The translations under genes and the position numbers were made by a program. The notes under the pieces were generated by a model, which made no database searches, was not told the DNA's origin, and saw nothing but the letters and a program-made list of their open reading frames with translations. DNA of 60,000 nucleotides from Tubulanus polymorphus (lineage: Eukaryota; Nemertea; Palaeonemertea; Tubulaniformes; Tubulanidae), in the NCBI RefSeq assembly GCF_964204645.1, contig NC_134026.1:10119450-10179449 (forward strand). Reading direction: 5' to 3'. Below are positions 963-27,847 of the stretch, piece by piece; position 1 is the stretch's first letter, and the number at the start of each line of letters is the position of its first letter.

Positions 963-1147
963 TAATAAATGTGCCATCTACATCAGAACTACCAGTGTTG
1001 TAAATGGTCATGCTCAGTACGTTTAGGTTACTCATGCTTACATACTCCTTTTATCGTTTACAGTCCCTTCCCTAAGGTAGTGAGTCTGTCATTCCTTTGC
1101 ATTATCTAATGGTTTGATTTTTCTTGTATCAGAATTCCTTTGCTGTG

Positions 1148-2230
1148 ATGGCTAGTGAAGCGTCTAAACGTCCTAATACGCGAGGTCTGAAGAGGACACC
1201 GGCAGTGTCCCGAAGTAGAAGTCACGATGCTGCAATGCGTGACGGCGAACTTTCTCTACCCGGCGATAGCCTTGGGGTCGGCAGTACCGACCGTGGTCGG
1301 AGCAATAATAGTCCCCTGTCCGTGCATTTTGATACCGGGGATAATACGAATATCCCGGTATCATTCCCTTTGCAGTCCCCCTTGCATTCTTTCCCTTCTA
1401 ATAGCGACGGTGGAGATAATGCCTCTACGTCGTTTAGTCGGCAGGATCGTGATTCTTTCTCTCTTGGTCGGCCTCAGTTCCGTGCGGTAGAGCCCGAGTC
1501 ATATTCTGGTGAAGGTGTATGGGAGGACTACCTCCAGGTTTTCATTACCGCATCCGAGGTGAATCAATGGAACGATTCTATGAAGGCGGCTATGCTTTTC
1601 ACTCATCTTAAGGGCGCGGCTCGTCAGTTGGCTTGTTCCTTACCTTTCTCCGACCAGAGGGATTTTTCGCGTCTTGTACAGGCTTTGCATAACAGATTCG
1701 GAGCTAGCAATCAATCGGAGCTCTATCTGGCTGAAATACGTAATCGTAAACGTCGTAGGAACGAGTCCCTTCGTGAGCTCGGCCAGGCACTTATAACCCT
1801 TTCTAACCGTGCATATCCAGGTATGGATATGTTGCAACATGACCGACTTTTGCGGACACACTTTCTTGATGCATTGGATGATAGTGATCTTAGAATGAAG
1901 CTCTTCATGAGCAAATGTCAGTCCTTAGATGAGCTCATTATTCTTGCAGTGGAGCTTGAGGGATATGCTAAGTTGGAGCAAGAACGATTAACTGGGGGAA
2001 GGATATTTGTTAAGAACGTAACCGGCAGAGAAAATGAGTCTACGGAGTTAGACCAGCTACGGGGGCAAGTAGCTGATTTGACCAAGGCTGTATCCAAGCT
2101 TTCCATACCCAATGCTGGACCTCGTGATCTTTCTACCGTTCGTTGTTTTAATTGCGATCGGATGGGCCATTTCAGACGTAATTGTCCTGATAGGTCGGGA
2201 AACTTCCGTCAGCGGGTCAAGCGGGAGTAA
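1148..2230 (+). CDS. gag: Gag polyprotein of the gypsy element
   Basis: The frame is open from 1124, but the first ATG is at 1148, giving 360 residues. The N-terminal 110 residues are Ser/Arg-rich and polar. The middle (about nt 1500-1990) has the retrotransposon-gag capsid pattern of tryptophan and leucine-rich helices. Near the C-terminus there is one CCHC zinc knuckle (CFNCDRMGHFRRNC), which binds RNA in this family. Gag assembles the cytoplasmic particle that packages the RNA. The stop at 2228-2230 is preceded by a -1 frameshift signal at 2197, so a fraction of ribosomes should enter the protease frame. Confidence 0.9.
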   Translation: MASEASKRPNTRGLKRTPAVSRSRSHDAAMRDGELSLPGDSLGVGSTDRGRSNNSPLSVHFDTGDNTNIPVSFPLQSPLHSFPSNSDGGDNASTSFSRQDRDSFSLGRPQFRAVEPESYSGEGVWEDYLQVFITASEVNQWNDSMKAAMLFTHLKGAARQLACSLPFSDQRDFSRLVQALHNRFGASNQSELYLAEIRNRKRRRNESLRELGQALITLSNRAYPGMDMLQHDRLLRTHFLDALDDSDLRMKLFMSKCQSLDELIILAVELEGYAKLEQERLTGGRIFVKNVTGRENESTELDQLRGQVADLTKAVSKLSIPNAGPRDLSTVRCFNCDRMGHFRRNCPDRSGNFRQRVKRE

Positions 2231-2553
2231 GCCCTGCTGCTGACTTATCTCCCACTACACAAATGCACGAGACAGAGAAACCCATAGTAAAAGATTCTTT
2301 GAGACTTCCTATAATAGTCGAAGGTGTTAAACTCAATTGCCTTGTGGACACTGGAGCATCAGTGTCTATCCTAAATCATAACTGCTATTACCGGCTGGGT
2401 GAACATACGTCTTCGCCCCCCTTGTTGGATACTTCATTAAACCTCCTAACAGCTAATAAAACTCCCATTCGCTCGTTAGGCCACACGAATGTTGAAGTAA
2501 AGCTGTTCCAAAAACCTGTACATTGGGAAATTCGTGGTCGCAGATATCAGTGA
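2194..2553 (+). pseudogene. aspartic protease region, frame broken before RT
   Basis: This -1-frame segment carries the retroviral-type aspartic protease motif LVDTGASVSIL (about 2341-2373), with the catalytic Asp in DTGA. It processes the polyprotein. An ATG at 2263 exists, but expression by frameshift from gag is more likely. Near 2515-2522 the conserved C-terminal part (ILGMDFL, about 2561-2581) continues in the next frame, and this frame ends at 2551-2553. A run of five A at about 2510 is a likely site of a one-base length change. This could be real damage or an assembly error. Confidence 0.8.
2197..2244 (+). promoter_or_regulatory. -1 programmed frameshift signal (slippery heptamer plus stem)
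   Basis: GGGAAAC at 2197-2203 is read in the gag frame as G GGA AAC, the X XXY YYZ arrangement needed for -1 slippage. The -1 frame is closed by TAG at 2191 and then open through the protease, so the overlap is confined to 2194-2230. Four bases after the heptamer, GTCAGC (2208-2213) can pair with GCTGAC (2239-2244), with GGG/CCC as a possible inner extension. Heptamer, frame, spacer and stem all match known retroelement sites. Confidence 0.85.
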
Positions 2554-5500
2554 AGATGTCATTTTAGGCATGGATTTCCTATCCTTCTTTGACTGTCAGA
2601 TCTTTCCTAAACGCCGGACCCTCATATGTGGCAATGAGCAACTTCATGCAAAATCTCCCAGTAACGGAGCTTGTCTCAATATTGTTTCCTCTTGTCAGAG
2701 AGTAGTTATAGGCCCCCGTTCGGAAGCGTTAATCGCGGGCATGGCTATGGATATCGAAGCCTATAGCAAGTGGGCATTAGTCGAACCTCGCATTTCTAGT
2801 AATATCACTGACGGTCTGATGGTTGCCCGCTGCCTTGTGGATACCGAAACTCATGCAATTCCCGTTCGAGTGTTCAACTCAACGGACCATCCAGTCACCG
2901 TCCCCCAGGGTTGTTCTATTGCTTCCATGGTCTCAATTGCGAGCCTCGATGACGCTCCGTCAGGCGAAGACGTACCTGACTCTTCAGATTCGCATTCAGT
3001 TAATCATATCAATTGCAACACCCCTGATCACCTTACAGATCTAATTGAACGCAGTTCTGAAGGATTTAATGATAAAGACGCTGCGAAGATTCGCGAGGTG
3101 ATTTCAAATTATTCGGACATATTCGTCCAATACGATATGGATCTTGGTACCGCTAAGGGTATAAAGCATACTATCGACGTTGGTAATGCTCGTCCCGTTA
3201 GACAGCGACCCCGTCGTCTGCCCCAGGTAAAACAAGACGAGGCTGATCGTCAAGTTAAAGAAATGCTCGAAAAAGGGGTCATAGAGCCATCCACCAGTCC
3301 TTGGGCAAGTCCCGTCGTCTTAGTTACCAAGAAAGACGGCAGTACCCGTTTCTGTATAGATTACCGAAGATTAAATGAAGTCACGTTAAAAGACGCGTAT
3401 CCCCTTCCTCGCATTGACGATTCTCTGAGATCCCTCCACGGTGCCAAGTATTTCTGTGTAATGGATTTAGCTAGTGGTTATTGGCAGGTCGAGCTCGACG
3501 AAGATGCAAAGGAAAAATCGGCGTTCGTGATGAGAAATGGCTTGTATCAGTTTAAGAAAATGCCTTTCGGCCTATGTAACGCAAGCGCCACGTTCGAACG
3601 CCTTATGGAGAACGTCCTATCCTCGTTGCAATACGAAATCTGTCTGGTTTATCTAGACGACGTGATAGTTTTTGGCTCGTCCCTTGATGCCACGTTAGAG
3701 AACCTTGGACGGGTATTTGAGCGCTTCCGCTTGTCTGGGTTAAAGTTAAAGCCTAAGAAGTGTCATTTCTTTCGAGCGTCGGTCCAATACTTAGGCCATA
3801 TCGTCTCCGAAGCTGGCGTTTCTTGCGATCCCGAAAAATTGAGAGCAGTGAGCGAGTGGCCTATTCCACGTACAGTCACAGGAGTCCGCTCTTTCATGGG
3901 TCTCGCATCGTATTACAGGTCTTTCTGTCCGAACTTTGCGGCCGTAGCTAAACCCCTCCATCGTCTAACCGAGAAGGGTAGAGAGTTCCTTTGGACTGCT
4001 GAGTGTCAACGAGCGTTTGAAACTTTGAAGTCGCTGCTCACTACATCCCCTGTACTAGCCTATCCTGATCTGAGAATTCCTTTTATCCTTGACACTGATG
4101 CAAGTGATACGGGCATCGGTGGTGTTCTTTCTCAGGTACACGCTGGTAGTGAAAGAGCCATAGCTTATGCCAGTCGTTCGTTGTCTAAAGAACAACGCAA
4201 TTATTGCGTAACCAGGAGAGAATTATTAGCCGTTGTCACGTTTGTCAAATATTTTCGACATTATCTATGGGGTACTCGCTTTACTTTGCGAACTGACCAC
4301 GGATCCCTTAGGTGGCTTACCTCCTTTAAAGAACCCGAAGGCCAAGTAGCTCGGTGGATAGCCGTCCTTAGCACGTACGATTATGAACTCCTTCACCGCC
4401 CCGGGCGAAACCACGGAAATGCCGACGCGTTATCACGTCAGAACTGTTCGCAGTGTCGTAGGATTGAGCATAAGAGTAGATCGCCCGCACCCTCTGACGA
4501 TGTAGGCGTTAATACTATCGGCAGTGTCACTACCACGATAGGTTTCTCTCTACTTCCGCATTGGTCAAAAAAAGAGTTAGCGTCCGCTCAGCGCTGTGAC
4601 CCGGAGTTCCGATGGATACTTCGCAAGTTGAAAGATAAGGTCCGCCCTACTCACGAAGAGTCTGCTTCTAAGGGCCCGTCTGACCGTTTCTATTCTACCC
4701 GTTGGGAGAACCTCCGTTTCGTGGATGGTTTGCTTCACATCATTAAGCACAGGGAAGGTCTCTCCGATTCGACTATCCTACTTTTACCGAAGCAGTTTCG
4801 ACAGGAGGTGCTCGAACATTTTCACGGCCACCTTGTTCGTGGGCACTTTGGCGTCAAGCGCACATTGACCGCAATACACGGCAGGTACTTTTGGTACGAT
4901 ATAAAGAGCGATGTCGCCGTTTGGTGCAGAAATTGTGAGTTGTGTCTCTCCCGGAAAAATCCTACTCGGCCAAATCACGGTCCTCTACAGTCCTCGGTAG
5001 TTGGGTTCCCTATGCAAAAAGTTGCCATGGACATCGTTGGTAATTTCCCTAGAACTAGCCGTGGTAATATCGCCATACTTGTCGTAGCCGACTACTTCAC
5101 TAAGTGGGTGGAGGCATATCCTATCGCCAACAAAGAAGCTGTCACGATAGCCGAAATTCTTACCCGTGAATTCTTCCCCCGTTTTGGAATACCTGATCAA
5201 TTACATTCCGATCAGGGTAGCAACTTCTTGTCTAAAATCATGAAGGAGGTATGCGAACTCCTCCGCATAAGGCAAACCCGTACTAGTCCTTATCACCCGC
5301 AATCCGACGGTCTCGTCGAGCGATTCCATCGCACATTAGTATCGGAGCTTTCTCTAGTAATTGAAGAAAGTCAAGATGATTGGGATCTGCAGCTTCCGTT
5401 CGTAACTATGGCTTATCGAGCCTCCAGGCACGATGCTACTGGTTTCACTCCTAACTTTCTTATGTTGGGTCGTGAGCTCCCTGCGCCTTTGGATCTTTTA

Positions 5501-5965
5501 TCCGGAAGATCGTTGTCTCTTGCACAAGAACAAACTTCTTATGCCCGTGAACTCCGCGAGCGTATTTCCACCGCTTACGACCGCACTCGGAACTCCTTAG
5601 GTCGACGTATAGTCTTCATGAAAAACCAGTATGACAAAAAGGCTCGAGGACACCCTTTTCGTGTCGATCAGTTAGTTTGGTTACATCAACCCGCCGTGCC
5701 TCTCGGTAAATCTCCGAAACTTTGGAAGCATTGGGTTGGTCCTTGTACTATCGTCCAAGTCCTGAATGACGTAACTTATCGTATCCGGTTGCCTAATGCC
5801 TCTGAGAAAGTGGTTCACTTCGATCGTCTCAAAATCCATCCTCGTCCGGATGAGGTCATTTCCCCTTCAGTCCCTCGTGCGATTGACACTGCTAATCCTC
5901 ATGTAGCAACGAAAACTCGTAGTGGAAGGGTCGTACACCGTCCCGTTCGATATTCGTGTACTTAA
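2534..5965 (+). CDS. pol: Pol: reverse transcriptase, RNase H, integrase
   Basis: About 1,143 residues. RT lies at about 3200-3770 with the catalytic YLDD at 3650-3661. RNase H at about 4080-4430 begins with DTDASD. Integrase has an N-terminal HHCC zinc segment at about 4815-4950, then a core with D (5030-5032), D (5210-5212) and E (5318-5320). Exactly 35 residues separate the last two, the DD35E hallmark. A GPY/F-like segment follows at about 5690-5840. These domains make cDNA and insert it in the nucleus. The apparent start is not a true start: the protein should be made by frameshifting from gag, but the break near 2520 would stop this copy. Downstream of it the frame is uninterrupted. Confidence 0.93.
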   Translation: MVADISEDVILGMDFLSFFDCQIFPKRRTLICGNEQLHAKSPSNGACLNIVSSCQRVVIGPRSEALIAGMAMDIEAYSKWALVEPRISSNITDGLMVARCLVDTETHAIPVRVFNSTDHPVTVPQGCSIASMVSIASLDDAPSGEDVPDSSDSHSVNHINCNTPDHLTDLIERSSEGFNDKDAAKIREVISNYSDIFVQYDMDLGTAKGIKHTIDVGNARPVRQRPRRLPQVKQDEADRQVKEMLEKGVIEPSTSPWASPVVLVTKKDGSTRFCIDYRRLNEVTLKDAYPLPRIDDSLRSLHGAKYFCVMDLASGYWQVELDEDAKEKSAFVMRNGLYQFKKMPFGLCNASATFERLMENVLSSLQYEICLVYLDDVIVFGSSLDATLENLGRVFERFRLSGLKLKPKKCHFFRASVQYLGHIVSEAGVSCDPEKLRAVSEWPIPRTVTGVRSFMGLASYYRSFCPNFAAVAKPLHRLTEKGREFLWTAECQRAFETLKSLLTTSPVLAYPDLRIPFILDTDASDTGIGGVLSQVHAGSERAIAYASRSLSKEQRNYCVTRRELLAVVTFVKYFRHYLWGTRFTLRTDHGSLRWLTSFKEPEGQVARWIAVLSTYDYELLHRPGRNHGNADALSRQNCSQCRRIEHKSRSPAPSDDVGVNTIGSVTTTIGFSLLPHWSKKELASAQRCDPEFRWILRKLKDKVRPTHEESASKGPSDRFYSTRWENLRFVDGLLHIIKHREGLSDSTILLLPKQFRQEVLEHFHGHLVRGHFGVKRTLTAIHGRYFWYDIKSDVAVWCRNCELCLSRKNPTRPNHGPLQSSVVGFPMQKVAMDIVGNFPRTSRGNIAILVVADYFTKWVEAYPIANKEAVTIAEILTREFFPRFGIPDQLHSDQGSNFLSKIMKEVCELLRIRQTRTSPYHPQSDGLVERFHRTLVSELSLVIEESQDDWDLQLPFVTMAYRASRHDATGFTPNFLMLGRELPAPLDLLSGRSLSLAQEQTSYARELRERISTAYDRTRNSLGRRIVFMKNQYDKKARGHPFRVDQLVWLHQPAVPLGKSPKLWKHWVGPCTIVQVLNDVTYRIRLPNASEKVVHFDRLKIHPRPDEVISPSVPRAIDTANPHVATKTRSGRVVHRPVRYSCT

Positions 5966-10025: not shown

Positions 10026-12777
10026 TATATCCCTTTGTTGCATATGGGTTACAATTGTTACCTTTTTTGGGGGGCCAAAAATAATTTTCAGTGAACAGAA
10101 TATTTTGTATGCATATACATCACAATTGTGACATTTGGTAGTTTATGTATCAATGGATAGATGGCGTAGGTAGTCTACTTTGGAAATCCAAGATGGCGGC
10201 GCCCATGTTAGGAAGGTGAGTTGAAAATTCTACAAATTTAAGGTCCCCTAAAATTTTGATAAGGCCAGGAATTGTGTCAATAACCAAATAAATGTGTTAT
10301 TAGGAACACAAAGACAATGCAGAATGCATTTTATGTATATTTAAAACTAAAAATTTGAAAAGGAGCTGTTTTATGGTTTGGTCACAATTGTGTCGTTCAT
10401 GCACACGAGCCGCATTAAGTAATGGTTACAATTGTGATAGCCATGCACTAGGACTTATTGTGTATTTTCTCACCTGTATATCATTAGATTACATTCTAAA
10501 ATTAGTACTGATATGTCTCCTTTGTCCTATATAGCACACCTAGATTGAGTTTACTCTATACTATGTTGTTTATGTTCCAGATTGAGTCGTCAAAGGCAGC
10601 GCCTTTCTACAAATGATGTAGTTCAGAACATTCTCAACAGTGATGATGACGATGACGGTGATATACCGTCTGGAAGTGAAGACGAACGGTTAGAAAGTGG
10701 CTCTTCAGCTGATGAAAGATATGATAGTGATGAAGACCCTGCATATAGTGAGGATGAAAATTCTGAAGGTTCTGTCGATGGCGATGAAAGCAAAGAGACA
10801 GACGATGATAACACTGATGATGTGCCGACTCAACCCGCTAAACATGCTAGGCATGCGGCAACTTCAAACAAGTAAGTTTGAGCTTTACATGGGGCCTAAT
10901 TACAGCTAAATTTATTTTATTCTAGCCAGGGGGTATAACCTAAACTTTGACTTGTGTCTTTCAGACCGAAGAGAAAAGTTTTGAAGTGGACGCATGCCGA
11001 TATAAAAGATTCAGGTGACCTACCAGAAAATGAATTATTGCCTAGGGGTGAGATAAAAAAAACTGCGAATCAGAAATTGACTATTTCTTATTGATGTTTG
11101 GCCAGGAGGCTATAGAACTGATAACACTGGAAACTAACCGATTTAGGTTACAACAAAAAAAGGACAAAACACCAGTAATTAGTGAACAGGAGATGCGTAT
11201 AGTTCTTGGAATCGTTATTTACACGTCAGTTGTTCATTTGCCTGGTCGAAGAGATTACTGGTCACAAGATATTCAACAAGAACTTGTAAAAAATGCCATG
11301 TCGGTTAATCGTTTTGAACAAATACTTGCAGTTTTCCATGTTAGCAACAATGATTTAGAGGTGAAACATGGTCAACCCGGTTATGACAGGCTCCATAAAG
11401 TCAGGCCACTGCTGAAAATAATCCAAACAAATTTTGATAAAAATGCTGAGCCTGAAAGGTTCATGTCTGTAGATGAGCAAATTGTTCCATTCAAGGGACA
11501 CCATAGTCTCAAAGTCTATATGGAAAAAAAGCCAAAAAAATGGGGCTATAAAATAAGGGGACTAGCCGGTCAATCCAGCTATATGCACAAATTTTACATA
11601 CAGGGTGATCCCTGATTTAGAACCAGGCATAGGTAAGAGTGATGAAGTTGTTTTGAATTTGGTACATCTCCTTCGTCAAGGCACTCACATTTTCTTTGAC
11701 AACTATTTTGCATCCCCAGAACTACTCCTAGAGCTAAAACGTCGAGGCTATCATGCGACCTGTACGATGCGTAAAAATAGGCGTGCTAAATGTCCCTTAA
11801 AGAGTGAAAAGGAATTAAAAAACAGGGCGGGGGTTCCTTTGACTACCAATCAGCCTAAGGAATCGTTATAACAGCCTGGTTTGACAATAAGGTTGTTACA
11901 GTTGGTTCAAACTTGTGTTCAGTCACGCCAACCCAGTATGTACGTCGGTATAATGCCAAAGAAAAAATAAACATGTAGAAATTGAGTGCCCAAGTATTAT
12001 AAAAACCTATAACCAAAACATGGGCGGTGTTGACCGTTGTGACATGTTATTGTCTTTTTATCGGATTAGAATGAACAGCAAGAAGTGGTACAAACGCATT
12101 ATCTTCCACTTATTAGATATGAGTTGTGTAAATGCCTGGACTATTGGCAGAAAAAATGGAAGTATTCAAACCAAGAGTAACAAGTTATACAGATTCAAAC
12201 TTGCCATTGCCCACTGCCTAATTTTGGGTGTTCCCAATCCTGAACCTGTGCTGAGAATCGAATCTGAAAAGGATGTACACAGGGCAAAGTTTGTGCCTGA
12301 CCACATACGCCTTGATGGTCATGGGCATTTGCCAAAATGGTTAGCTGAGGTCCCTAAACGCTGCAAAAACCCTACTTGTAATCGATGTACCAGATTCTTC
12401 TGTATGAAATGCAACGTATATTTGTGCATCGACAAACACAGCGATTGCTTTTATGACTTCCATGTAACTAACTAAAAATGACAGTGTAGATGTAATATCA
12501 AGTATATTTTGTATATAATTGATGAACCATTATGTAAAATCTAGTTCTTGAAGCATTTTATAATAAAAGAAATAGTGTTCTGTCAGAAGTCATTTTGTTA
12601 TATTTTAGTTCTTCGTTTTCATACTGGTCACAATTGTGAGTGGACCAAAAATGCCAAAATTTATTAAATTTGAAAATTTCAAAAAGATGATCACTCTTAT
12701 GGGTCCCTAAGTAGTTTATATTCCCAATTGCAAGTGAATATCTATAGATTAAGGCCTTCATGCAACAAAGGGATATA
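10026..12777 (+). mobile_element. piggyBac-family DNA transposon, decayed
   Basis: The ends form a perfect 18-bp inverted repeat (TATATCCCTTTGTTGCAT at 10026-10043 and its complement at 12760-12777), about 2.75 kb apart, enclosing a piggyBac transposase relic. Canonical piggyBac ends start with CCC next to a TTAA target. Here the CCC is preceded by ATAT/TATA on both sides, so the flank is not TTAA. Subterminal palindromes of the type CACAATTGTG recur near both ends. Confidence 0.85.
10582..12475 (+). pseudogene. piggyBac transposase, several frameshifts
   Basis: An acidic N-terminal exon (10581-10871, rich in Asp/Glu/Ser) follows an acceptor CAG at 10578-10580 and ends at a GTAAGT donor. The next exon starts at 10965 after TTTCAG in matching phase. 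The catalytic core is recognisable: MSVDEQIVPFKG (about 11463-11500, first Asp), FFDNYFAS (about 11692-11715, second Asp) and MGGVDRCD (12020-12043, third Asp). A C-terminal Cys-rich zinc segment (CKNPTCNRC, FFCMKC, LCIDKHSDCF) runs from about 12361 to the stop at 12475. The frame changes at about 11049-11062 (A run), 11605-11612, 11830-11860 and 11965, so no full protein can be made. The enzyme normally does TTAA-directed cut-and-paste. Confidence 0.85.
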
Positions 12778-15134: not shown

Positions 15135-15345
15135 CAGGGGCGGATCTAGGATTTTCCATGGGGGAGTGTCCAATGAGAAAAAGGGGCATTTTCTACGAAA
15201 CACCACGTACTCCGGAGACTTCTACACCATTTTAGCGTTGTTTTCATTTCCCTGAATACATAAAACTCGGAATGGAATCATAAAACCTGGAATCTTAAGT
15301 TAAAACCCGGAATCGTAAAATAAAACCCGGAATCGCACGCACCTG
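15135..15345 (+). repeat. left terminal inverted repeat with four 20-bp-spaced motifs
   Basis: TAAAACCCGGAAT-type motifs start at 15261, 15281, 15301 and 15321, exactly 20 bp apart, about two helical turns. The second and first have one change each (TAAAACCTGGAAT, TAAAACTCGGAAT). Such iterons near transposon ends usually bind transposase. Confidence 0.75.
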
Positions 15346-16200
15346 TGGATATAATTAATGCTCCCCTGAAATTCTCGAGATTGCGGACTCCAGCTCATGC
15401 GAAGTCCCGGCCCGGTGACAAAAAAAATTTAATACATCTGACACGATACAATTTTACGAAATAGTATAGCGCACGTTTTGTGGATCGTTTTTTATACTTT
15501 TTTACACGTTGATTCTCAAAAATTGCATAATTTCGTATATGTAAGTATGTCTTTACACCTGATAATATATAAATCATATGATCATGGTCTCAGGTCTACC
15601 CGCCCGTTAATAAAAAAATGGGCTAATCAATGGTTGATCAATAATGATTCATATTCAATCAATGTTGATTGATATTGATTGTTGATTTAACAAATAAGGA
15701 CGAAAGGTACCGGTACTTTATAAGACAAGTTTATGAATATAAATGAATGTTTGGTAGAATTTATGAAGAATTGAATGAGGCATGGTGATCATACGGTACC
15801 TGGTCTGGGATGACAGGTGGGGTACCGATTTAACTCGTTTCATGCTATGACTTATATATAGGCCTATGAGTAGTTACAACCAACCACCCGATGCAAAAAC
15901 AGCCCTACCATACCCTTTTTGAGTATCATAATGGGCTGTTAAGGACCATATCTGAATACAGAGATGGTAGAACCTAGATAGGCCTACAAGACGCGGTAGC
16001 GGGATGCTATATCACTGAAAATTTTCTAAGTCCTGTGAATCATCATTTTTTTCCTTAAATAGAAAAATAAATTCGACGCAAAAAGCTTTATTTTTATAGA
16101 TTCAAATTCAAACTACGTTTTCTTACTCCAAAGAACTTTTTTTCAGGCCTAGGCCTACCAGTATTTTTGCTATGTTGTGCTCTATGATACAATTAAATCA

Positions 16201-16229
16201 TAATATATTATTTCTTTCAGAAATTCAGG
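16201..16229 (+). other. acceptor and 5' leader of the fusion gene
   Basis: TTTCTTTCAG at 16211-16220 is a strong 3' splice site nine bases before the first ATG, so at least one untranslated exon should lie upstream, inside or near the left end. Two ATGs are in tandem (16230 and 16233). Confidence 0.55.
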
Positions 16230-19200
16230 ATGATGGAGTCTCCGATACCATTATTCAACTATAACAGCTCTAGCTGTTACCTAAATTCGATTGTGCAGTG
16301 CCTACGGGGCTTAACTGAATTTCGAAACAAGATTACCCAACATACTTTTGTGAATGAGTGTAAGTTATAAAACGTGAACCTAACCCTCCTTGGAGCTTGA
16401 TAACCAGTTTAGGCCCCATAAAAAGACATACTTAACTATAAACCATACAGATCTATTTCTTTGTTGCAGGTTTTAAAGATACGTGTTATAGGTGCATGCT
16501 TGGAAATGCCTTTGAGGGCAATAATGATGAGTTGTTTATTCATATAGAAGGTAATTTAAACTTAATATGCAACAAGTTTAGCTCTATCACAAATTAAAAT
16601 GGCCCCTGTTTGCAAAAATAAAAATCCAATGTGCCACATTTCATAAGCTTAAATTTTTGCCTGTATTAGTGTGTGAACACTTCCGGTCATATGTTTCAGA
16701 TATTATCCCAGATGGTGACCAATTCCATCAACAAGACGCTGAGGAGTTTTTTCAGGGACTAATGAAAAAACTGAAAGAAGAGGATCCGTAAGTTTGATGA
16801 GGTTTTATGGATTCAGTTTTTACATTGAAAAATCACTACACCTACATTATTTCTGGTCCAGATAAGGGAATGTGTATAAACGAGGCAAGCCCTTTCTTAC
16901 CTATGCTTTGCTATTACCACACTAACCTACCTGTTCCTAAAAATTAAATTTTCTGAAATAAACTGAATAAACTGTTTTTTCCCATTTTAGACTGAATATC
17001 TTGTGGCTCTATTAATTGATTCAGAAATGCATGTATAATCTTTAATGCCTATTGCAGGTCATTATTTGAAATGTTCCTAACCAACTGGCGACAAATCAGT
17101 AAGTTTTAAATGTAATATAACATGACTTCATCACAATACTGGAAGAATGTTTTAACAATTCATTTTTTGTAACTTAACATTGATCATGGATTATTTCTAG
17201 CATCCTGTGATCAGTGTGGGGAGAAGTCTGTAATACATGACGGCTCGAATATAGTTTCTCTGCCTTGCTTGGTGAGTTTTCATATTAAAATACAAGTATT
17301 TTGTTTTTCTTTTATATGTTTTTATTATACAGTTGGCCTACATAAATATGACCTAAGCATGACCCTATGAAATTCCTAACAGTCATAGGTCATATCTTTT
17401 ATCCATTGGTTTGGGTTTGATAAATGATAGTTGTTGGTCTTTTCGGCTAGCCCATGGAAGTAGAAAGAAATTACTGACTACCCTAACATAATATACACAA
17501 ACATGATTTTGCATTTTTTAAAGGATTATACAAATGGCACTTCTATTACTGATGTGCCTCAGGCACTGAAACTGTTTGGAGCGAAGGAGAGGTTGAATTT
17601 CAATTGTTGCCAGTAAGTTGAACAGAACCTCCATGTAGATTAAAGATCAATTGGAGTAAGTCCCCAAAAATCCCTCGCTTTTGATGAAGTTATTCCTATG
17701 TTCAATTAATTTCAGGTGTGATTCCAAGACAGCAGTTCAAAGCAGACAGTTTATTGGAGGCGAGAAATATTTAGTCCTACATTTAAAGAGGTAACTGAAG
17801 TTCTATATCTTTTCTATATCTTTAGGACAAAAAAAACTACATGAATGTTCAAATGAAAAGTACATATCATGCACTGACATCCTGGATTTTGATGTGCTTG
17901 CCTACACAAGTTAGGTGGAAAATCATACGAAATATTATATTTTTAGGAAACTGAGGAGATAGTATGTATTCTTATTCTTGCTTTCACTTTGTGTGTGGTC
18001 ACCAACTTAAATGTTGTATATAGTGGTTTATTATATACCGTATATATTATAGTACTCCTTTCTGGAAGAGTAATTGATCAATGAAATGAATTGTGTTACC
18101 TACACTGTGGCTAACTTTGCTTAATGGTTATGAACTGATTTACAGTAGTTTTCTGATGAGGAGTGAGTGCTGCTTATAGGCTAATATGATTGAAATAATT
18201 GTAACAGGGGAATATATTTTGTGTTTTATGTAATGTAATCATTATCATTTAATAATAATATTTTATATGTTTTGCACTTAGTGGCTTAATGTAATCCGCA
18301 CCTATCTACAAAATGATTTTGTAGCGCTTCCATAACTGGCTGGTGTTCATCATAATATGATAACTTTTACATGAAAATACAACTGAAAATCATATATACA
18401 TAAACATAATATATACATAAATATACATAAACATATACATAATAGATGTATATTAATTATATGGTATTCTATCGTATTATTTTCTGCTTGCTATGCTTTA
18501 TGATTATATTATTAATATGCCAAACAGCTCCCCGGTCCCGGAGTTCACCAATGAGAAATCATAATTTTGTGATGCTGCAAAATGTAACTAAACCACTAGT
18601 GTATACGTGCACAGATAATATGTGGACGATGTATCTAGATGAAGCTCTATTAATTTATGGGACTTACATTGGAACTAGCTTCATTTTAAATGTGCATCAA
18701 TTATTTTATCATATTACTATTTACTTTCAGGTACACATTTGATGTCTCTTCAAGATCGCCTATTAGGTTAGGACATAGTATCTACCCTCCAGTTGGCTTA
18801 GAAGCTAGAATCGGGGAAAGTTTAGTAAGTTTCTGTACACTCATACTCAATTTTCTAGAAACACATATGCCCGTTTAAACTAAATAACTGTGCTGTGCCC
18901 CCGGTCATGGAATTAGGGTTGAAAATGTCATGAAGACCATGAACCCAGAAAGCCGGATCATTCCCATTGCACATACAGCATTTTATAAATAAAGAAAAAA
19001 ATTTCAGAAGAGATATAAATTGAAGAGTGTCGCACTCCATGACGGTCAATCAACAAAGTCTGGCCATTATCGAACAGTGGTGGAATATAATGGCCGCTGG
19101 TTCACAGCTGATGATGAACAGGTATTTATCCATATCTTTCAACATTCATCTTTCCAACATTTACCACAGTTAATATTCTAGTATTCAACCACATTTTGAA

Positions 19201-22200
19201 TTGTAATGAAAGAAACTTAAAGTTGAGTAACTTTCAATCGGCTCAGCACCACTGATGACAATACTACTAGTGTATACACCCACAATGTAGATTCAAAAAA
19301 CAGTAACTATTGTTTTTATTCTGGCGTTTGAAGTAATAACTTAATTTTGTTCCCACTGTCTGGATATAGAAAATAACCAACAACATATACCTCGAGGATT
19401 CTAATCCAATTACTCGCTTGACAGGATCAGTATGGGTTAAACGTTCGGTCATTGTGCGCATCAATAATTTTGCGAGATTATACTATTTTAGGTGGATTTG
19501 GTTGATATGAGAAAAATGGACATCTCGAAAGAATCATTCCTTCTTTTTTATGTAGTGCATAATGTAAGTGTACCAAGTTTCGTAGTTAGTTAACTAATAA
19601 ACAGCGTTGATATTTAGTTCTGTCTGTTTATTACCGATGTTGTCTTGAAAGAAGCGTTTTCAGCCACGTAGAACCTGTTTCAATTCATTAGCTCACTTTT
19701 GTTGATTTAAAAAGTGTTAGCCAATCGCTTAATAAAGTCGTTTAATTTTAACAGGATAGTGATCCATCTGGTATAGAATATACCAAGGTTCGGGCTCAAG
19801 AGTCTACATATCTGGTCAGTAATAACTCCGACGATCAAGCTCCAGATGTCTCTGGTATCAACGTGGAGTCCGAAGATTTGGACATAAACATCAGAAAACG
19901 AAATGTGAGTTTCTATTAATGGTTCATTCTGTTAATAAACGGTTATAGATCAAATGAAAATTGTAGATATGTAGTAGGCCAGTCCTAAAGGACCCCCTAT
20001 GTCACCTTATGGTCTGATTTAGGTGCAGTCAACTATGGCTCCTCACCGAAATCTGATGATGATTAAAGCAAAGGAGTCACTAAATTAGCTGGCTGACTAC
20101 ACCTATGATAGAACGCTGTAGAAGACAATTTTTATCTGATTGTAGTAATATAATATGCTAAACTAAATTCATTTCAGTATTCATCATTACAAGATAAGAG
20201 AAAAATCTATAATAAAAAGCAGAAAACAGGAAAAGGGAACAAGTAAGTATTTGAATCAGGTACAGATCTAGCCTGAAGTAGTTACGGTAGTACATATGTT
20301 TATTTATCAATGTTACTAGATCAATTTGAAAGGCACCCATGAAAGCCAACAGCTTGTTGCAAGAGTCACTTTGAACACCCACACAATCAAAACATTCGCA
20401 CTCAACAATCTCATTACAATCAAATACAGTAGAGTCCAGCAAACTCAATTATTGTGCAAACTTGAATAGATTCGTAAAACATTTAAACATATAATTATTA
20501 TTCTACCATAAAATCAGCTAACTCGAATGAAAACCGTATGTACAAATTGATTCAAGTTAAGCTGAATCTTCTGTAGTTACATTGAAAAAGTAAAATTTTG
20601 CATTATGAAAAATTTAAATTATTTCAGTGGAGGTCGATTTAGATGCAAGATGTGCAGCTTTGTGTGTGCCACTCGCCAGGAAATGACAGATCATCAGGTG
20701 ACCCACTTAGACTATTACATGGAAGAACTGCCGGGGAAAGGTAAGATTTTGAAGTATGCGTCAATTCATCTGTCTTTCCGACAGTACGATATTTTCAGCA
20801 TGCCATCATTGGTATGTACATGTTTCTTCCAGAGACACTACAAATTTATATTTATATTTATTTATATTTGAGCTGTCAATATCTATAATACCAGTACCGT
20901 ACATCTCTTTTTGTTGTTTCGCAGTGATGTTCAAGCTTCAGAATTGTCTCGTGAACTCAGAGAAAATTCTGTCTCAACAAAATGCACTGATATGGTAAGA
21001 TTATCGGACTCATCCAAGCGTGACACCATAATTATATCTGACTCTGATGATGGCAACTCGATTTCAGGGTAGGTGTATGTGTATTAACGTGACTGTTTTC
21101 TGTTTATTGGTGAAACCATATATATTTCCCCAAAAAAATTGGCTGTGGTAACAGTGGCTGTAACCAGTGAACAATACAGTATAATTATGCATTATTTTAA
21201 CCAATAATCTTGCCGAAATCATGATAGTCATGCAGTATGTTGTATTATTTATTCCATCCAGGTTGAGTTCAGTCAATCTGTTACCCAATTATAACTCTTT
21301 GATTCCACACATTTTTATTGCCTTCCTCAAATCTTTGACACCTAGTACTTAATGTAACACTTTTTTTTCAAGATGTTCACCAGTTATTCATGTCATATCA
21401 GATGTTGAACAAGATTCAAATGAAGATGACAGTAGTGCAAACGACCAGGTATGTTTCGTTTCTGAATCGTTATGACTTATTTCTACTGAACTCAAATATT
21501 TTTCCTTCACTAGGCTGAATATATTCAATCAATTCCCTACTAGTCCTTCAATTCCAAATGCTATGAATTTTCTATGGAACCTCCAATTAGAGGGCTGTTT
21601 TTCTCATTTGCCCTGTCGTTGGGACTGTTATATCTTCAAATTGATATGAATTTGCTATGAATGTTCTCTAGGGGCAACCCCTGTGGGTGGGACTTATTTC
21701 TTCACATTGATATGGATCAAGGCCATCTAACAAGCAGCGGAGCTATATCACGCGATAGACTGCTTGTTGTTTTATAAATTTTTTTCTTTTCAGACATACC
21801 GGTATTACAAGGGTGATGAACAGTTACCAATATTTTTGGATGGTAAGAAAGACCACACAATCAATGAAATGTTCTTCGCCATAAGAAAAGCGAAAGAAAA
21901 GTGTAAAAAAGTGCCAGTCAATATTTGTCACAGTGTGTTCTTCCTTATTGATTTGGAGAATGTACCTTTGAAAGAATTAAAATGTGACAGCAATGGTGTT
22001 TACGAACATAAAGGCAAGTCTACAATGACAGTCAGAAAACAAGTTGATACTATCACTATAACGTCTAAAAGAAAATTACCTTTGGGTAGCTCTGGCGACA
22101 ATTACCATATTGTCCGTATTTATTATAGACATGCCGACTATCCTGATTTTTCTAGGAAAATTGTTTATTTTGTCAACAATCAGGGAAAGACTGTAAATGA

Positions 22201-24295
22201 CACTGCACTCATATCATATGCTTTTGATGGTGAGCCCCACCCAATCATCGTTCGACCACATGGCAACAGCAAAAAAAGTAAGAGGCCTTATACTAGAATC
22301 AAGCCATCTGTTATTAATAAAGTTAAAGATAAGTTAGTTGGTGTGTCTCCAAGAGAAGCTGTCATGACACCTCTCTCTGAAGCGGATGGCCTGGCAGACG
22401 TGCCAACCTTGGCATCAGCCTATAAAATAAAGCATAACGCGAGACAGGTTCATCACTGCAATGAAGAAGATGAACTTACAGCCATGATGGAATTGGCGAG
22501 TGGTGAACTAGCTGATTTTATACAGAGTATTGAGGTTTGTCCGAATTTAAATGTTGTACTCTTTACACCACAGCAGGCTGAGGATATAGGTTTCTTTTGC
22601 ACAGATCCTATAGACTTCCATCCAATCAGTATTGATCCAACATTTAAATTTGGAAAATTTAATGTAACGCCAATAACGTACAGGCATAAACATTTATTAT
22701 GCAAACGGACTGGAAAAAACCCTATATTTACTGGGCCTATGTTGGTACATTTTAAAAAAACCCAAGAAGCTTATAGGAAATTGTTTAGCTGCTTGAGTTG
22801 CAAGTACCCTGAACTGAGTAACATATTAGCATTTGGCACCGATGGTGAAACGGCGTTGAGTTCGGCTGTCCATAGTGCCTTGCCTGATGCCATACACTTG
22901 CGCTGCACAAGGCATTTAATGGCAAATTGTCAATTAAAATTGTCAAAGCTCAGGTGTGATAGTAATGAGATCATCAAAATTCTTGCTGAAATATTTGGCG
23001 ATAAAAATAATTCAGGGCTAATTGATAAATTGACACCGTCATCGGCAGAAAAAAAATTCTCCGAGCTGCGCTGTCGGTGGGATTGTGTTTGCCCTCAATT
23101 TAGCACATATTTTGCAGACTTGATGCCAGTCATTAAGGAAAATATGATAGCCGGTGTTCGATCACAAGCTGGCCTTGGATCTCCACCTGATACCTTTTAT
23201 ACTAACGATTCTGAAGCTTCAAATTCGCGAATGCGAAAATGGATGGGAGCTACAGAACATGGTCTGAGTTCATTTACTAAGTCCTGCCGCCATATGATAG
23301 AGTCTGAGCGAGAGGAGGTAGTAAAAGCTTATGCTGGAATCTCGGAATTATATGAGGTACGCAATGAATTTAAAGATGCATTGCGTATCAATTACTTCCA
23401 AATGACTCCTGAACAGCGTTCTTCACGTTTAAGTGACATCAGGTTATTAACTTTGCATCACATGCACAATCAGTTTAACTCAGTTCGCCCTAGCCAAACA
23501 TCTTTGTCCATATCATTGGACAAAGCTTACAGCTTTGTATCATCAATAACTAAATCGGTTTTTGAAGGCATGTGGAAAAAGGCTTGTGAGCTTACTAGCA
23601 ACCATTCACTCATAGCTCCTGCTCCTAGTAGGGACCCAACTATATTAAAGTTCAGCACCATTAGTTACTCGTCTACAAATAATAATGAAGTTCAGGTGTA
23701 TTTAAGCACTGCAAAATCAACTTGCACTTGTAAACGATATAAATATTACTATGTTTGTTCACATATACTTGCCGTGTGTGAGAAGTCTGGAAAATTAAGT
23801 CAGTTTTTAAATTGGTACAAATCTTCATGCAAAAAGCCAAATAGACTGGCCGTTGCCACTTGCGATGTAAATATGCTCTCTGTTGGTCGCAAGGGGAACA
23901 ATCCTCGCAGAAATCAAACACCCGCAGTAACAAATATTACAGAAGCGAATACCACCGGTACCTCAACAGACTTTCAGTTAACTTTTCTTCACGGTTATCA
24001 AATAAAAAAATGTTATGGCTGTGGTGTACCATTTGACGAAAGTGAGAGAAATCCCCCAAATGATCTGATCCTGAAAAAGATTGATTACCGATTCTATAAA
24101 CATCAAATAACTGGTGTACCTACTCAAAGCAATAAACCACAGAATACTTATTACCATCTCAATCGAAAGTGTGTTCAAAAAAGATATAAGAACTTTGTTC
24201 CCACACAGGTAAATTGTACCCCAGAAATGCGGAATAATTTACAGCAATCACACGCTACACGTTATGATCGTTTCTTAATGTATGGCTCTGGTTGA
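16230..24295 (+). CDS. USP-type protease / C2H2 / MULE-like transposase / SWIM fusion, 16 exons, 1,295 residues
   Basis: Exons: 16230-16359, 16470-16550, 16700-16787, 17058-17098, 17201-17271, 17524-17612, 17716-17790, 18731-18824, 19008-19121, 19492-19563, 19755-19904, 20178-20242, 20628-20740, 20942-21068, 21373-21448, 21794-24295. All junctions are GT-AG, phases agree and the total is 3,888 nt with no internal stop. Residues 1-285 form a short USP domain: Cys box SSSCYLNSIVQCL (Cys16), QQDAEEFF (81-88), a CxxC pair and CCQC, YLVLHLKR, then SGHY (His243) and ADDEQV (Asp258). A C2H2 finger is at 363-383. SUMO-interaction-like IIISDSDD (424-431) and VIHVISDVE (441-449) follow. The MULE-like catalytic core has Asp743 (IDPTF), Asp812 (FGTDGE) and Glu936. 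SWIM CxCx8CxH spans 1106-1119, then a CYGCG...HLNRKC module. USP enzymes cut ubiquitin or SUMO isopeptide bonds; MULE enzymes cut DNA. The physical fusion is seen; its substrate is inference. Confidence 0.85.
20922..20941 (+). promoter_or_regulatory. paired alternative 3' splice sites
   Basis: Two acceptors, GCAG ending at 20924 and TTCAG ending at 20941, follow one pyrimidine tract. Only the distal one keeps the transposase in frame. The proximal one, joined to the exon ending at 20740, ends at TAA 20996-20998 and would give a 418-residue protein with the protease and finger only. Confidence 0.55.
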
Positions 24296-26025
24296 TATCT
24301 GGTTATGAATATTGTTTAATTTCAATTATCTTTCTTGTAAATTTACAGTTTGCTGCTACTGTTTGGTATGTATTTTACGCATTACTATGTCAAACTTGTA
24401 TAAGCTTTTTCATGGAAAATTTCATTTGATTTAATTTTGTACTTGTCAAATTGTTTGTTTACTTGTGCTATATCAATGAGTGTAGTGGTGTGTCTATCAG
24501 ATTCTATGGTAATAATTAGCACTGCATATGTTACAGTGCACCATCTTCTCGCTATCCTTTATTCATGTTGGTGTTGGGTCTGTGGAGGGTTGGTTGGTAC
24601 CCCAGAAGTGTGGAAACTGGATAAGAAATGCTTGAACACTAATATATGAATACATTTATGGTTAAAAATAATTCTAGAAAATGTTCAATGAATACATTTT
24701 TTGGTTGAATCTAATGTGCACTGGTTTTTGAGTTGAATACTGCGTATTGTTTAGGGGTGCCAACATTTTCTATTGTGGTGGTCGGCTTCACTTTTAACAC
24801 TTGTGTTCTAACTCTATGCTTTCACAAACTATACAATGCGTGTAGACTAGGAGTATGGATAAGTCGAATCTGTTTAGTCAGTGACTAACTTCGGCTTCAA
24901 AAACTAAGATACATGTATCTATGAAATCTGAAATCAGGGTTCTCCAGCTTTTGCTATGTACATACTTGTCAATCCTCTTACTATATGGTCATTATCTCCA
25001 CAAGACTTTGAATATGATTACACGTGTCTTATTTAAACCTTACCCAATTCTAACCAAAAGTTTTTATGTTTTAATTAATTCTGGATTTTGTAACACAAAT
25101 CATATAGTGCTGATGCTTTACTGAACAGCTTGCTTAGTGCATTTTGCATAGTGTGTTTTTGCATAGTGTGTGCTTATTCAGGCAATTGTTAGTCTATATT
25201 TTAATCTTTGTCAACCATAATAATGTAAGACATAATTAAGATTTTTCAGGATGAGAAAAATATCGTACAAACATGGTTTCGTATTGAGAAGAATCCTACG
25301 TACTACCGGAGTTGGATTGTAATATTAATCACCCTTACCATTTTCGTGATCATTTCTGAATTTAAACTACTACAATCCACAGTCCATATATATTTGATTT
25401 AAATATTTACCAGTATCATATAAATTTTACTATGATTACAAATATTTAAAAAAACTAATACAATGGAAATGAACTTACTTTCTGACACACTTTGTAGATC
25501 GTATGTTAAAGTAAAGTAATATGGATAACTACGTAATACTTGTGGTAGGTATGATAATATGTAATAATAGTTCTGTTTATGTAATGTACCGGTTATGTAT
25601 GTGAAAACAGTTGTGAAGGCAGCTTCAAAATAAATAAAATATTTTAATGAAGATTCTTTGTCTTTGCAATAAGTTCTTTGAGGATATTGGCCTATTTCTG
25701 TTTTTGGAGGATTGGATTAAAAAATAATAAAATCATCGTCAAACCGGGAGTTTCGTATTTAAAAAATCGTTCTTCGACTGTACCTAAACTGGAGTAACTC
25801 CAGGCCGTGTAGCCCTACGTACAATACGCGCTCGTTAGGTTATTCCAAACGGCCCCATTACACACCGGCCGGTAGGTCCTATTTACAAAAAAAACAACGT
25901 CCGCGAACTCTGGGTTTGACAATGTTTAGATCGGATGTATAGTCCGATAATACATAATCTGCATAACAAATTCAATTCAAAATAACTTTCCACGTCGTTC
26001 CGTGTTTCAATTTTTTTTTTTTTTT
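24296..26025 (+). other. 3' untranslated and non-coding part of the 11-kb transposon
   Basis: No domain-bearing ORF. AATAAA occurs at 25629-25634 and 25633-25638. If used, they give a 3' UTR of about 1.3 kb. The rest up to the right terminal repeat is AT-rich and featureless to me. Confidence 0.5.
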
Positions 26026-26267
26026 GGGGAGCATTTATTTTACATTTCCGGGTTTTAACTTAAGATTCCAGGTTTTATGATTCCATTCCGGGTTTTATGT
26101 ATTCCGGGAAATGAAAACAACGCCATTTTAGGGGGTGCTTTCAGTCATTTCATGCGTTGAAAAAATATTATAGGTGGAAAACCTTGGTCAAAAAAATTTT
26201 GTGTGACATTTTTGAGAGCACTTCAATGTTGAGGGGGTTCCCGACATCCCCGCTAGATCCACCCCTG
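26026..26267 (-). repeat. right terminal inverted repeat with three 20-bp-spaced motifs
   Basis: The complementary motif (GGTTTTA core) starts at 26051, 26071 and 26091, again at exactly 20 bp. The block up to 26130 mirrors the left end. The segment 26131-26250 does not match the left end, and then the outer 15 bp match again. Confidence 0.75.
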
Positions 26268-26459: not shown

Positions 26460-27847
26460 CAGGGTGTCCCAGATATTACTATACAATAAAGAATTGCTCT
26501 AAAATCTACTAACATTGATCAATCCTTTTGATACTTGGTCCGATCATATAGTGCATCAGTAAGCTTTTCTCTGATGCCATGGTTACCTGATTTATGGCTT
26601 CTTCACAAAATAATCTATTCTTACCCTTAACTGCCAAAATTTTGAAAAATCCCAAGAGTGAAAATATCATCAGTTAATACGTTTTCATGTTTGACCAAAA
26701 AGTAAAGGCAGTTATTTGGTGGTATGAGGTGGAATCACAGAAATGCAGAGAAGATACAGCATTAGCTTAAACACTAAAGCACTGACCAGGAAAGCCATTT
26801 ATGACCTCGTGGAGAAGTTTGAAGCAACTAGTTCAGTGAAAACGACATGAGAATACATAATGGCAGGTCAATTCGGTCAAGTTCAGATAAAGTCATTGAG
26901 ATGGTGAAGCCAGAAGTGGAGGATAATCCACATTATTGATTAGACGTATATCATCAGAAAACTGGTCTTAGCGAGTCAAATGTTCAAAGAATTCTTCGTC
27001 AGTCGCTGCACTTGTTGATCCGTCTGAAGTTCAGATAAAACTGAGAATACGCATTACAGATAAAGTGGCCAGACCTTGCCCTTGCCGCGTGGATGTCAGA
27101 CAGGATTCACTGGACCTTCTGGAGAAATTATGGTTTAGCGACCAGGCTCATTTTTATCTCAGTGACCATGTAAACAACCAGAATTTCAGATTTTGGGGAG
27201 CAGAGAATCCACACATGATTATTGAGAAACCACTGCATGTTGTGAAGTGTACTGTCTAGTGTGCTATTGGAATTTCCGGGATCATTGGACCCTACTTTTT
27301 GGAGGAGAATGGAGAAGCTGTTACTGTAAATGGAGCACGCTATAGAAGTACGCTAACTTAATTCTTCATTCCAAAGCTCAGGCGTCTTTTAGGGAACAAC
27401 ATGAAACAGGCATGGTTTCAGCAAGATCGGGCCACAGCCCATACTGCGAAACTGACATTAGATGTTCTAGGCCATAATTTTGGTAAGAGAATCATCTCAC
27501 TCAAGAGTGATCATGGCTGCCCCCTTTATTCACCTGATCTGAATCCCCTTGATCTATTTCTTTGGGGATATCTCAAATACAATCTCTATAAAGGCACACC
27601 AACAACTATTGAACATTTGAAAATAAACATTTGGCAGGAAATTGCAAATGAAGGGTACGATGTATTGAGGAATTTGGTGGACAATTTTGTTAAAATACTA
27701 ACAGAAGTGAAATATCTACAGGGATCACACATTGAACATATCTTGAAAATTACTTGTAATAAAATAATTGTTGATTGACTAAAAAACTTATCACTTTCAA
27801 AGTAGAGAGAGCAATTCTTTATTGTATAGTAATTTCTGGGACACCCG
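26460..27847 (+). mobile_element. mariner-type DNA transposon, 1.39 kb, inactive
   Basis: Inverted ends of about 40 bp begin CAGGGTGTCCCAGA (left) and end in the complement with one base missing. Both are flanked by TA, the universal mariner target. Right arm: about 27807-27847. The interior encodes a mariner transposase relic on the same strand. It lies about 190 bp outside the right end of the 11-kb transposon. Confidence 0.88.
26690..27778 (+). pseudogene. mariner transposase, multiple stops
   Basis: Recognisable blocks: LWFSDQAHFYLSDHVNNQN (about 27128-27186), IIGPYFLEENGEAVTVNGA (about 27280-27340), WFQQDRATAHTA (27413-27448, a catalytic Asp block) and YSPDLNPLDLFLWGYLK (about 27527-27577, third acidic block). 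It resembles the IS630/Tc1/mariner DDE_3 enzymes widespread in insects. Stops at 27257-27259 (where the family has a Trp codon) and 27358-27360, and many stops before 27000, remove function. Confidence 0.85.

Follow-up and report, generated by a model that had tools for sequence, protein, structure and literature searches.

The stretch of DNA analysed here, which we call the window, covers 60,000 nucleotides of Tubulanus polymorphus on contig C2 of a genome of 268 Mb. It holds a Mutator-type transposon with a single gene of 16 exons inside. The open reading frame of this gene runs through 1,295 codons separated by GT/AG introns and has no stop, as the preliminary description of this DNA had claimed. 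Its product is predicted to carry, in this order, a ubiquitin-specific protease (USP), a C2H2 finger, an acidic linker with motifs resembling those that interact with SUMO, a DDE transposase core and a SWIM finger. The proposal that this is an animal DNA transposon with a USP-transposase is borne out by the genome, where diverged sub-families show the two parts linked again, as do two near-identical copies with target duplications of their own.

The joining of a USP-type protease to a MULE-like DDE core and a SWIM finger, also claimed before, was upheld by the Pfam matches, to which a 50-sequence alignment and a structure model were added for the DDE core. Pfam matched the UCH family at residues 14-281 (E 1.3e-24), and the domain has the sequence features of peptidase C19, namely the Cys box (Cys16), QQDAEEF at 81-87, the zinc CxxC pairs and the His box (His243), as well as Asp258/259. 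The SWIM finger was found with E 3.6e-6. The MULE match (E 3.2e-4) was below Pfam's cut-off, but the DDE core is further backed by the alignment, where the D, D, E and C833 were invariant and H836 was present in at least 90% of the sequences, and by the structure model, in which it takes an IS256-type fold. Integrase, Rep and helicase families were not listed by Pfam for the gene product, and no Ulp1 family was among the Pfam matches up to E 1. It is conceivable that the USP is itself a SUMO isopeptidase like Ulp1, so that the linker would bind SUMO while the protease desumoylates the transposase or piRNA-dependent silencing factors. The SUMO-interacting-like linker is in favour of this, and so is the fact that the accessory protease slot of other Mutator elements is held by Ulp1 (PMC2836005; this paper, like PMC5225508, PMC6446971 and PMC9741609, is cited from parts of its text). 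We regard it as unlikely, since the domain matches ubiquitin-specific proteases, the closest solved sequences being USP2, USP21, USP36 and USP46, and no SUMO-protease family of Pfam was listed for it. The positions of all features are given in Table 1.

Table 1. Features of the transposon and of the short repeat around it, in positions of the window
Feature	Position	Strand	Basis
Left part of the ~240-bp CAGGGG repeat, including the left 9-bp duplication	15135..15235	+	Genome matches, joined-flank alignment
Left target-site duplication CCATTTTAG	15227..15235	+	Joined-flank alignment
Mutator-type transposon, 10,887 bp	15236..26122	+	Joined flanks, inverted ends
Left terminal inverted repeat, ~89 bp, begins CGTTGTTTTCATTTCCC	15236..15324	+	Likeness to right end
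16-exon gene	16230..24295	+	Reading frame; exons arranged much alike in families B and C
Exons 1-8	16230-16359, 16470-16550, 16700-16787, 17058-17098, 17201-17271, 17524-17612, 17716-17790, 18731-18824	+	
Exons 9-16	19008-19121, 19492-19563, 19755-19904, 20178-20242, 20628-20740, 20942-21068, 21373-21448, 21794-24295	+	
Predicted USP (peptidase C19) domain, exons 1-10	16269..19563	+	UCH E 1.3e-24
Exon 13, putative C2H2 finger (by eye), holds one-base indel relative to C10 copy	20628..20740	+	
Exons 14-15, acidic linker with SUMO-interacting-like motifs	20942..21448	+	
Exon 16: DDE core, SWIM finger, conserved Cys/His C-terminal region	21794..24295	+	
Predicted catalytic DDE span: D743, D812, E936, with C833/H836 between	22634..23215	+	50-sequence alignment
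SWIM zinc finger	23693..23785	+	Pfam
Right terminal inverted repeat	26034..26122	-	Likeness to left end
Right target-site duplication CCATTTTAG	26123..26131	+	Joined-flank alignment
Right part of the CAGGGG short repeat	26132..26267	+	Joined flanks, genome matches

The boundaries of the element differ from those first proposed, which were inverted CAGGGG...CCCCTG ends with a 5-bp target duplication AGTTT. Both are present in the sequence, and CAGGGG was seen 22 times in the window where 12 are expected by chance. When the genome was searched with the first 501 bp of the stretch between these ends, 34 of the 40 scored matches covered the first ~82-116 bp alone, and for its right 135 bp, 39 of the 40 scored matches were outside the window. 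CAGGGG...CCCCTG are the ends of a separate repeat of ~240 bp with dozens of copies, outside the transposon proper. After positions 15135-15235 had been joined to 26132-26267 with one CCATTTTAG retained, the resulting 237 bp aligned end to end with all three copies tried (L005, L006 and L007) at 83-89% identity. Because the flanks rebuild a normal short repeat and the CAGGGG parts are found elsewhere with no gene between them, the CAGGGG boundaries are refuted, and the chance that one element ends there is practically nil. The preliminary description had itself named independent CAGGGG repeats as a counter-argument; the boundaries alone fall with them, and the fusion stands. The transposon of 10,887 bp is nested within the older short repeat, which provides a clean empty site, and at 10.9 kb it should be called large, not giant as before. 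Its terminal inverted repeats (TIRs) are ~89 bp long, the left and right ends being 96% identical over 90 bp. A 9-bp duplication flanked all three copies of which both ends were read (those in the window and on C8 and C9), within the 8-10 bp given as a MULE feature (PMC5225508). With its MULE/IS256-related DDE core, 9-bp duplication and TIRs, the element belongs to the Mutator/MULE group. At least one short relative with ends of the window type was found (C1:16212816-16213740).

The source genome was searched for further copies as the preliminary description had advised, which yielded ten near-complete DDE loci and end matches elsewhere. The DDE exon gave 57 matches; a locus was counted as near-complete when its combined matches reached at least 600 residues at 38% identity or more, more fragmentary loci being left out. 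The ten are the window, C10:7351272, C4:17036278, C10:9170794, C8:9169186, C9:4390526, C6:14605022, C6:14633038, C3:17707288 and C6:12245060, and eight of them have USP matches upstream. The weakest cases were C6:14605022 and C6:14633038 (family D), in which the His box alone was seen (E 0.067 each); tblastn on one fetched C6 locus of this family gave the His box with E 1.6e-4. At the C3 locus the best USP match had E 3.9e-4 in a single search. For the window lineage (A) and families B and C, UCH matched with E ~1e-24 in each, and Cys16, His243, Asp259 and QQDAEEF were invariant, apart from the neighbours of the last residue; the last CxxC pair of family C was partly altered. The identities of the USP and DDE parts were 44% and 41% for A-B, 42% and 44% for A-C, and 40% and 42% for B-C, with the family C values taken from the C10 copy for the USP and the C4 copy for the DDE. 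Because the two parts have diverged equally, the fusion looks old, and a single ancient USP-DDE fusion appears to fit better than repeated capture. The idea that a host gene for a USP simply lies next to a transposon was also considered and rejected, as the same layout recurs in the diverged copies.

Family B, 41-44% identical to the window lineage, provided two full-length copies, C8:9167775-9176415 (8,641 bp) and C9:4385846-4394435 (8,590 bp). In two overlapping aligned pieces they differed by no mismatch in 5,410 bases and by one in 4,706, and by 43 and 51 gap positions, of which 43 were within a stretch holding a TA microsatellite. Their 9-bp duplications and their flanks are different, and the TIR of the C9 copy is identical over 64 bp. 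The USP-bearing unit has thus spread recently. The gene of family B has 18 exons with the frame open from USP to SWIM and one weak donor in exon 5; the end of exon 11 is resolved otherwise in NCBI's model, and the NCBI protein LOC141911244 shows 98% identity over 54% of the family B protein. A search with the 121-bp 5' end of this family gave 42 matches, 40 of them elsewhere (40 of 119 candidates were scored), including three pairs in inverted orientation with 0.3-1.5 kb between them, as expected of short non-autonomous relatives.

These copies bear on two other explanations. The USP exons might be mere passengers, picked up on a single occasion as a fragment of a host gene in Pack-MULE fashion and playing no part in transposition; a tendency to take in pieces of host genes is known of Mutator elements (PMC6446971), and copies without a USP do exist. 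We consider this quite unlikely, in view of the active-site residues kept in three lineages at 40-44% identity, the matching exon phases, the family B frame that runs open into the transposase, and the equal divergence of USP and DDE. It is far less probable still that the gene is an immobile host gene derived from a domesticated transposase. Its many exons and the annotation of the C9 copy as protein-coding by NCBI would agree with that idea. Against it stand the inverted ends, the 9-bp duplications around every copy whose two ends were read, the clean empty site, the presence of near-identical copies amid different flanks on two contigs, and the 40 further scored end matches of family B. As the insertions are nested and duplicated, this explanation is refuted for the copies in the window and on C8 and C9.

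The linker contains several short stretches that we take to resemble known SUMO-interacting motifs. They are TIIISDSDD and VIHVISDVEQD in A, EYIDISTSDEED (in a duplicated exon), RIIVSAENSESDE and PIMISSDDE in B, and EVIEISSDD and CIVISDDSE in C. A strict motif pattern was found once in A, once in C and twice in B, where each copy of the duplicated exon contributed a hit. A loose pattern, which leaves the EYIDIS stretches of B uncounted, was absent from the USP and DDE parts of A, and a search of the family D linker on C6 gave no clean reading. At L043 1110-1600, the family B linker exon and its flanking intron are duplicated around the TA microsatellite, a duplication that may represent growth of the SUMO-interacting-like array at the level of exons.

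The explanation towards which we lean is that the element is an autonomous MULE transposon encoding a USP-transposase protein, in which the USP would guard the transposition machinery from ubiquitin-dependent removal. The C2H2 and SWIM fingers would help to bind the element ends, and the DDE core, judging from its family, would cut and join DNA as in IS256/Mutator. The USP, as its sequence suggests, would be a ubiquitin protease that is active and bound to the transposition complex; the linker may recruit it to SUMO-modified chromatin or to SUMO-modified transposase. There it would strip ubiquitin chains, for example those from SUMO-targeted ubiquitin ligases, and this removal would spare the transposase or its repair partners proteasomal extraction until integration is complete. 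More tentatively, the protein may be a SUMO-guided deubiquitinase, with an exon-modular array of SUMO-interacting motifs that tethers the USP to SUMO-marked silencing or repair complexes, undoes SUMO-targeted ubiquitylation and protects its own complex; we hold this to be possible, not probable. Similar ideas have been put forward for other elements. Bao et al. (2010) suggested that such proteases act in transposition or repair (PMC2836005), and the paper on VTD suggested protection of transposition proteins from degradation (PMC9741609); what the proteases do for transposition is not shown in the extracts of these two papers.

Several observations weigh against a protective USP-transposase. 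The window copy may be frameshifted and dead as a fusion, because its open frame needs a weaker acceptor and the junction phase in B and C differs. The frame is open solely through the acceptor before 20942 (9/17 pyrimidines), while the stronger one before 20925 (14/17 pyrimidines) leads to a stop; the paralogues in B and C have a phase-2 junction after exon 13, which fits the acceptor before 20925. The earlier claim of consistent phases therefore holds for the frame through 20942 and breaks down at exon 13, where a one-base indel separates the window copy from its sister (C10:7349471-7359830). This sister, which has lost its left end, is ~99% identical to the window copy, with 92 substitutions over 10,365 aligned bases; its exon 11 shows a 2-base gap, and its DDE exon carries four one-base indels. 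Between the two there was no sign of purifying selection, with 19 nonsynonymous and 7 synonymous changes against a neutral ratio of ~3.1-3.2. In family B, the NCBI model of the C9 copy contains the USP, C2H2, linker and start of the DDE exon and then continues into other sequence before the catalytic residues. The statistics of the linker are also modest: the strict pattern gave p 0.17 for A, 0.28 for C and 0.0096 for B, or 0.13 for B when the duplicated exon was counted once, and the loose pattern, chosen after inspection, gave p 0.003 (A), 0.034 (B) and 0.14 (C), or 0.001 combined.

DDE copies without a USP, named in the preliminary description as a possible counter-argument, were found in part. 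The C4 relative has an open DDE frame and no USP; since its 99.3% identity to the C10 copy of family C starts just after exon 10 and continues onward, it is a deletion derivative of that family. Two more, C6:12245060 and a 29%-identical relative on C2, had no USP in ~5.8 kb upstream. Such relatives imply that an element may not need a USP of its own to be moved in trans. None of 107 public DDE relatives was listed with a USP domain, many of them probably being single-ORF predictions blind to upstream exons. No relative turned up when viral contigs were searched with the DDE part.

Some further sequences came up beside these. The public protein P0106 (1,512 aa, on a 5.1-kb contig) is a transposase relative that carries a protein kinase domain at its N-terminus (Pkinase E 1.1e-35) besides a SWIM match (E 4e-4), and is perhaps a second case of an accessory domain fused to a transposase of this Mutator group. 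C2:12538817-12563534 and C20:90822-115521 share the same USP matches and scores, TIR matches and a near-equal spacing, and C20 may duplicate part of C2 or represent an alternative haplotype of it; at the C2 locus, the USP exons were followed by DDE fragments only. At several places on C11, C5, C7, C1 and C4, open frames of 48 residues weakly matched the His box of the USP (E 0.008-0.06); they perhaps stem from one more repeat family with a USP exon. Transposons are abundant in the window. Recognized by eye were Gypsy-like LTR retroelement frames at 1118-5965 (a gag-like ORF with a CCHC knuckle and a pol-like ORF), two piggyBac-type transposase-like ORFs at 11052-12475, and a broken mariner-type transposase-like sequence at 26740-27500, just to the right of the element.

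Proteases of the ubiquitin and SUMO pathways recur in unrelated transposons, such as Mutator, Ginger and Helitron (PMC2836005, PMC9741609). The element described here resembles Mutator-like elements, whose bacterial counterpart is IS256, in its DDE core with C..H between the second D and the E, its SWIM finger, inverted ends and 9-bp duplication, and is unlike Mutator-like elements in its N-terminal USP, SUMO-interacting-like linker and gene of 16-18 exons. The preliminary description had set plant elements with ULP1 against an animal element with a protease of another fold; the protease is indeed a USP, but the contrast was too narrow, as Ulp1-bearing Mutator elements have been cited in hydra and lancelet (PMC2836005). 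Like those of plants, hydra and lancelet, the present element has a predicted cysteine isopeptidase of the ubiquitin/SUMO pathway, which is C19 and not Ulp1. Ginger1 is also an animal cut-and-paste element, with a transposase fused to an OTU or Ulp1 protease (PMC2836005), but it has a Gypsy-type integrase, a C-terminal protease and a CCGG/CCGT duplication, in contrast to the Mutator core, N-terminal protease and 9-bp duplication unlike CCGG found here. Helitrons and Helentrons with VTD or OTU likewise are animal transposons that code for deubiquitinases, and their VTD enzymes are active on ubiquitin (PMC9741609); they differ in their rolling-circle Rep-helicase and protease families, and the present element has inverted ends and a target duplication. 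The Trichomonas protein XP_001314237.1, known here from its naming in PMC2836005, joins a C19 peptidase to a DNA transposase as well (transposase_11), which is of another superfamily and from a protist.

A USP-Mutator fusion was not found in the titles and abstract starts of open-licence PMC papers, Repbase and subscription papers being outside this scope. The main text of a 2019 Mutator survey (PMC6446971) does not mention ubiquitin, protease, peptidase, ULP1, OTU or SUMO, and a 2026 survey of arthropod MULEs (PMC13359780) mentions neither protease nor ubiquitin. Protease-bearing transposons have precedents, to which the USP-Mutator pairing, as read from its sequence, would add one with a C19 protease on a Mutator core. 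With the USP in one frame with the transposase and two recent copies with mapped ends, a single active-site change could separate the protease from the transposase. The unsolved role of ubiquitin-pathway proteases in transposons thereby becomes testable.

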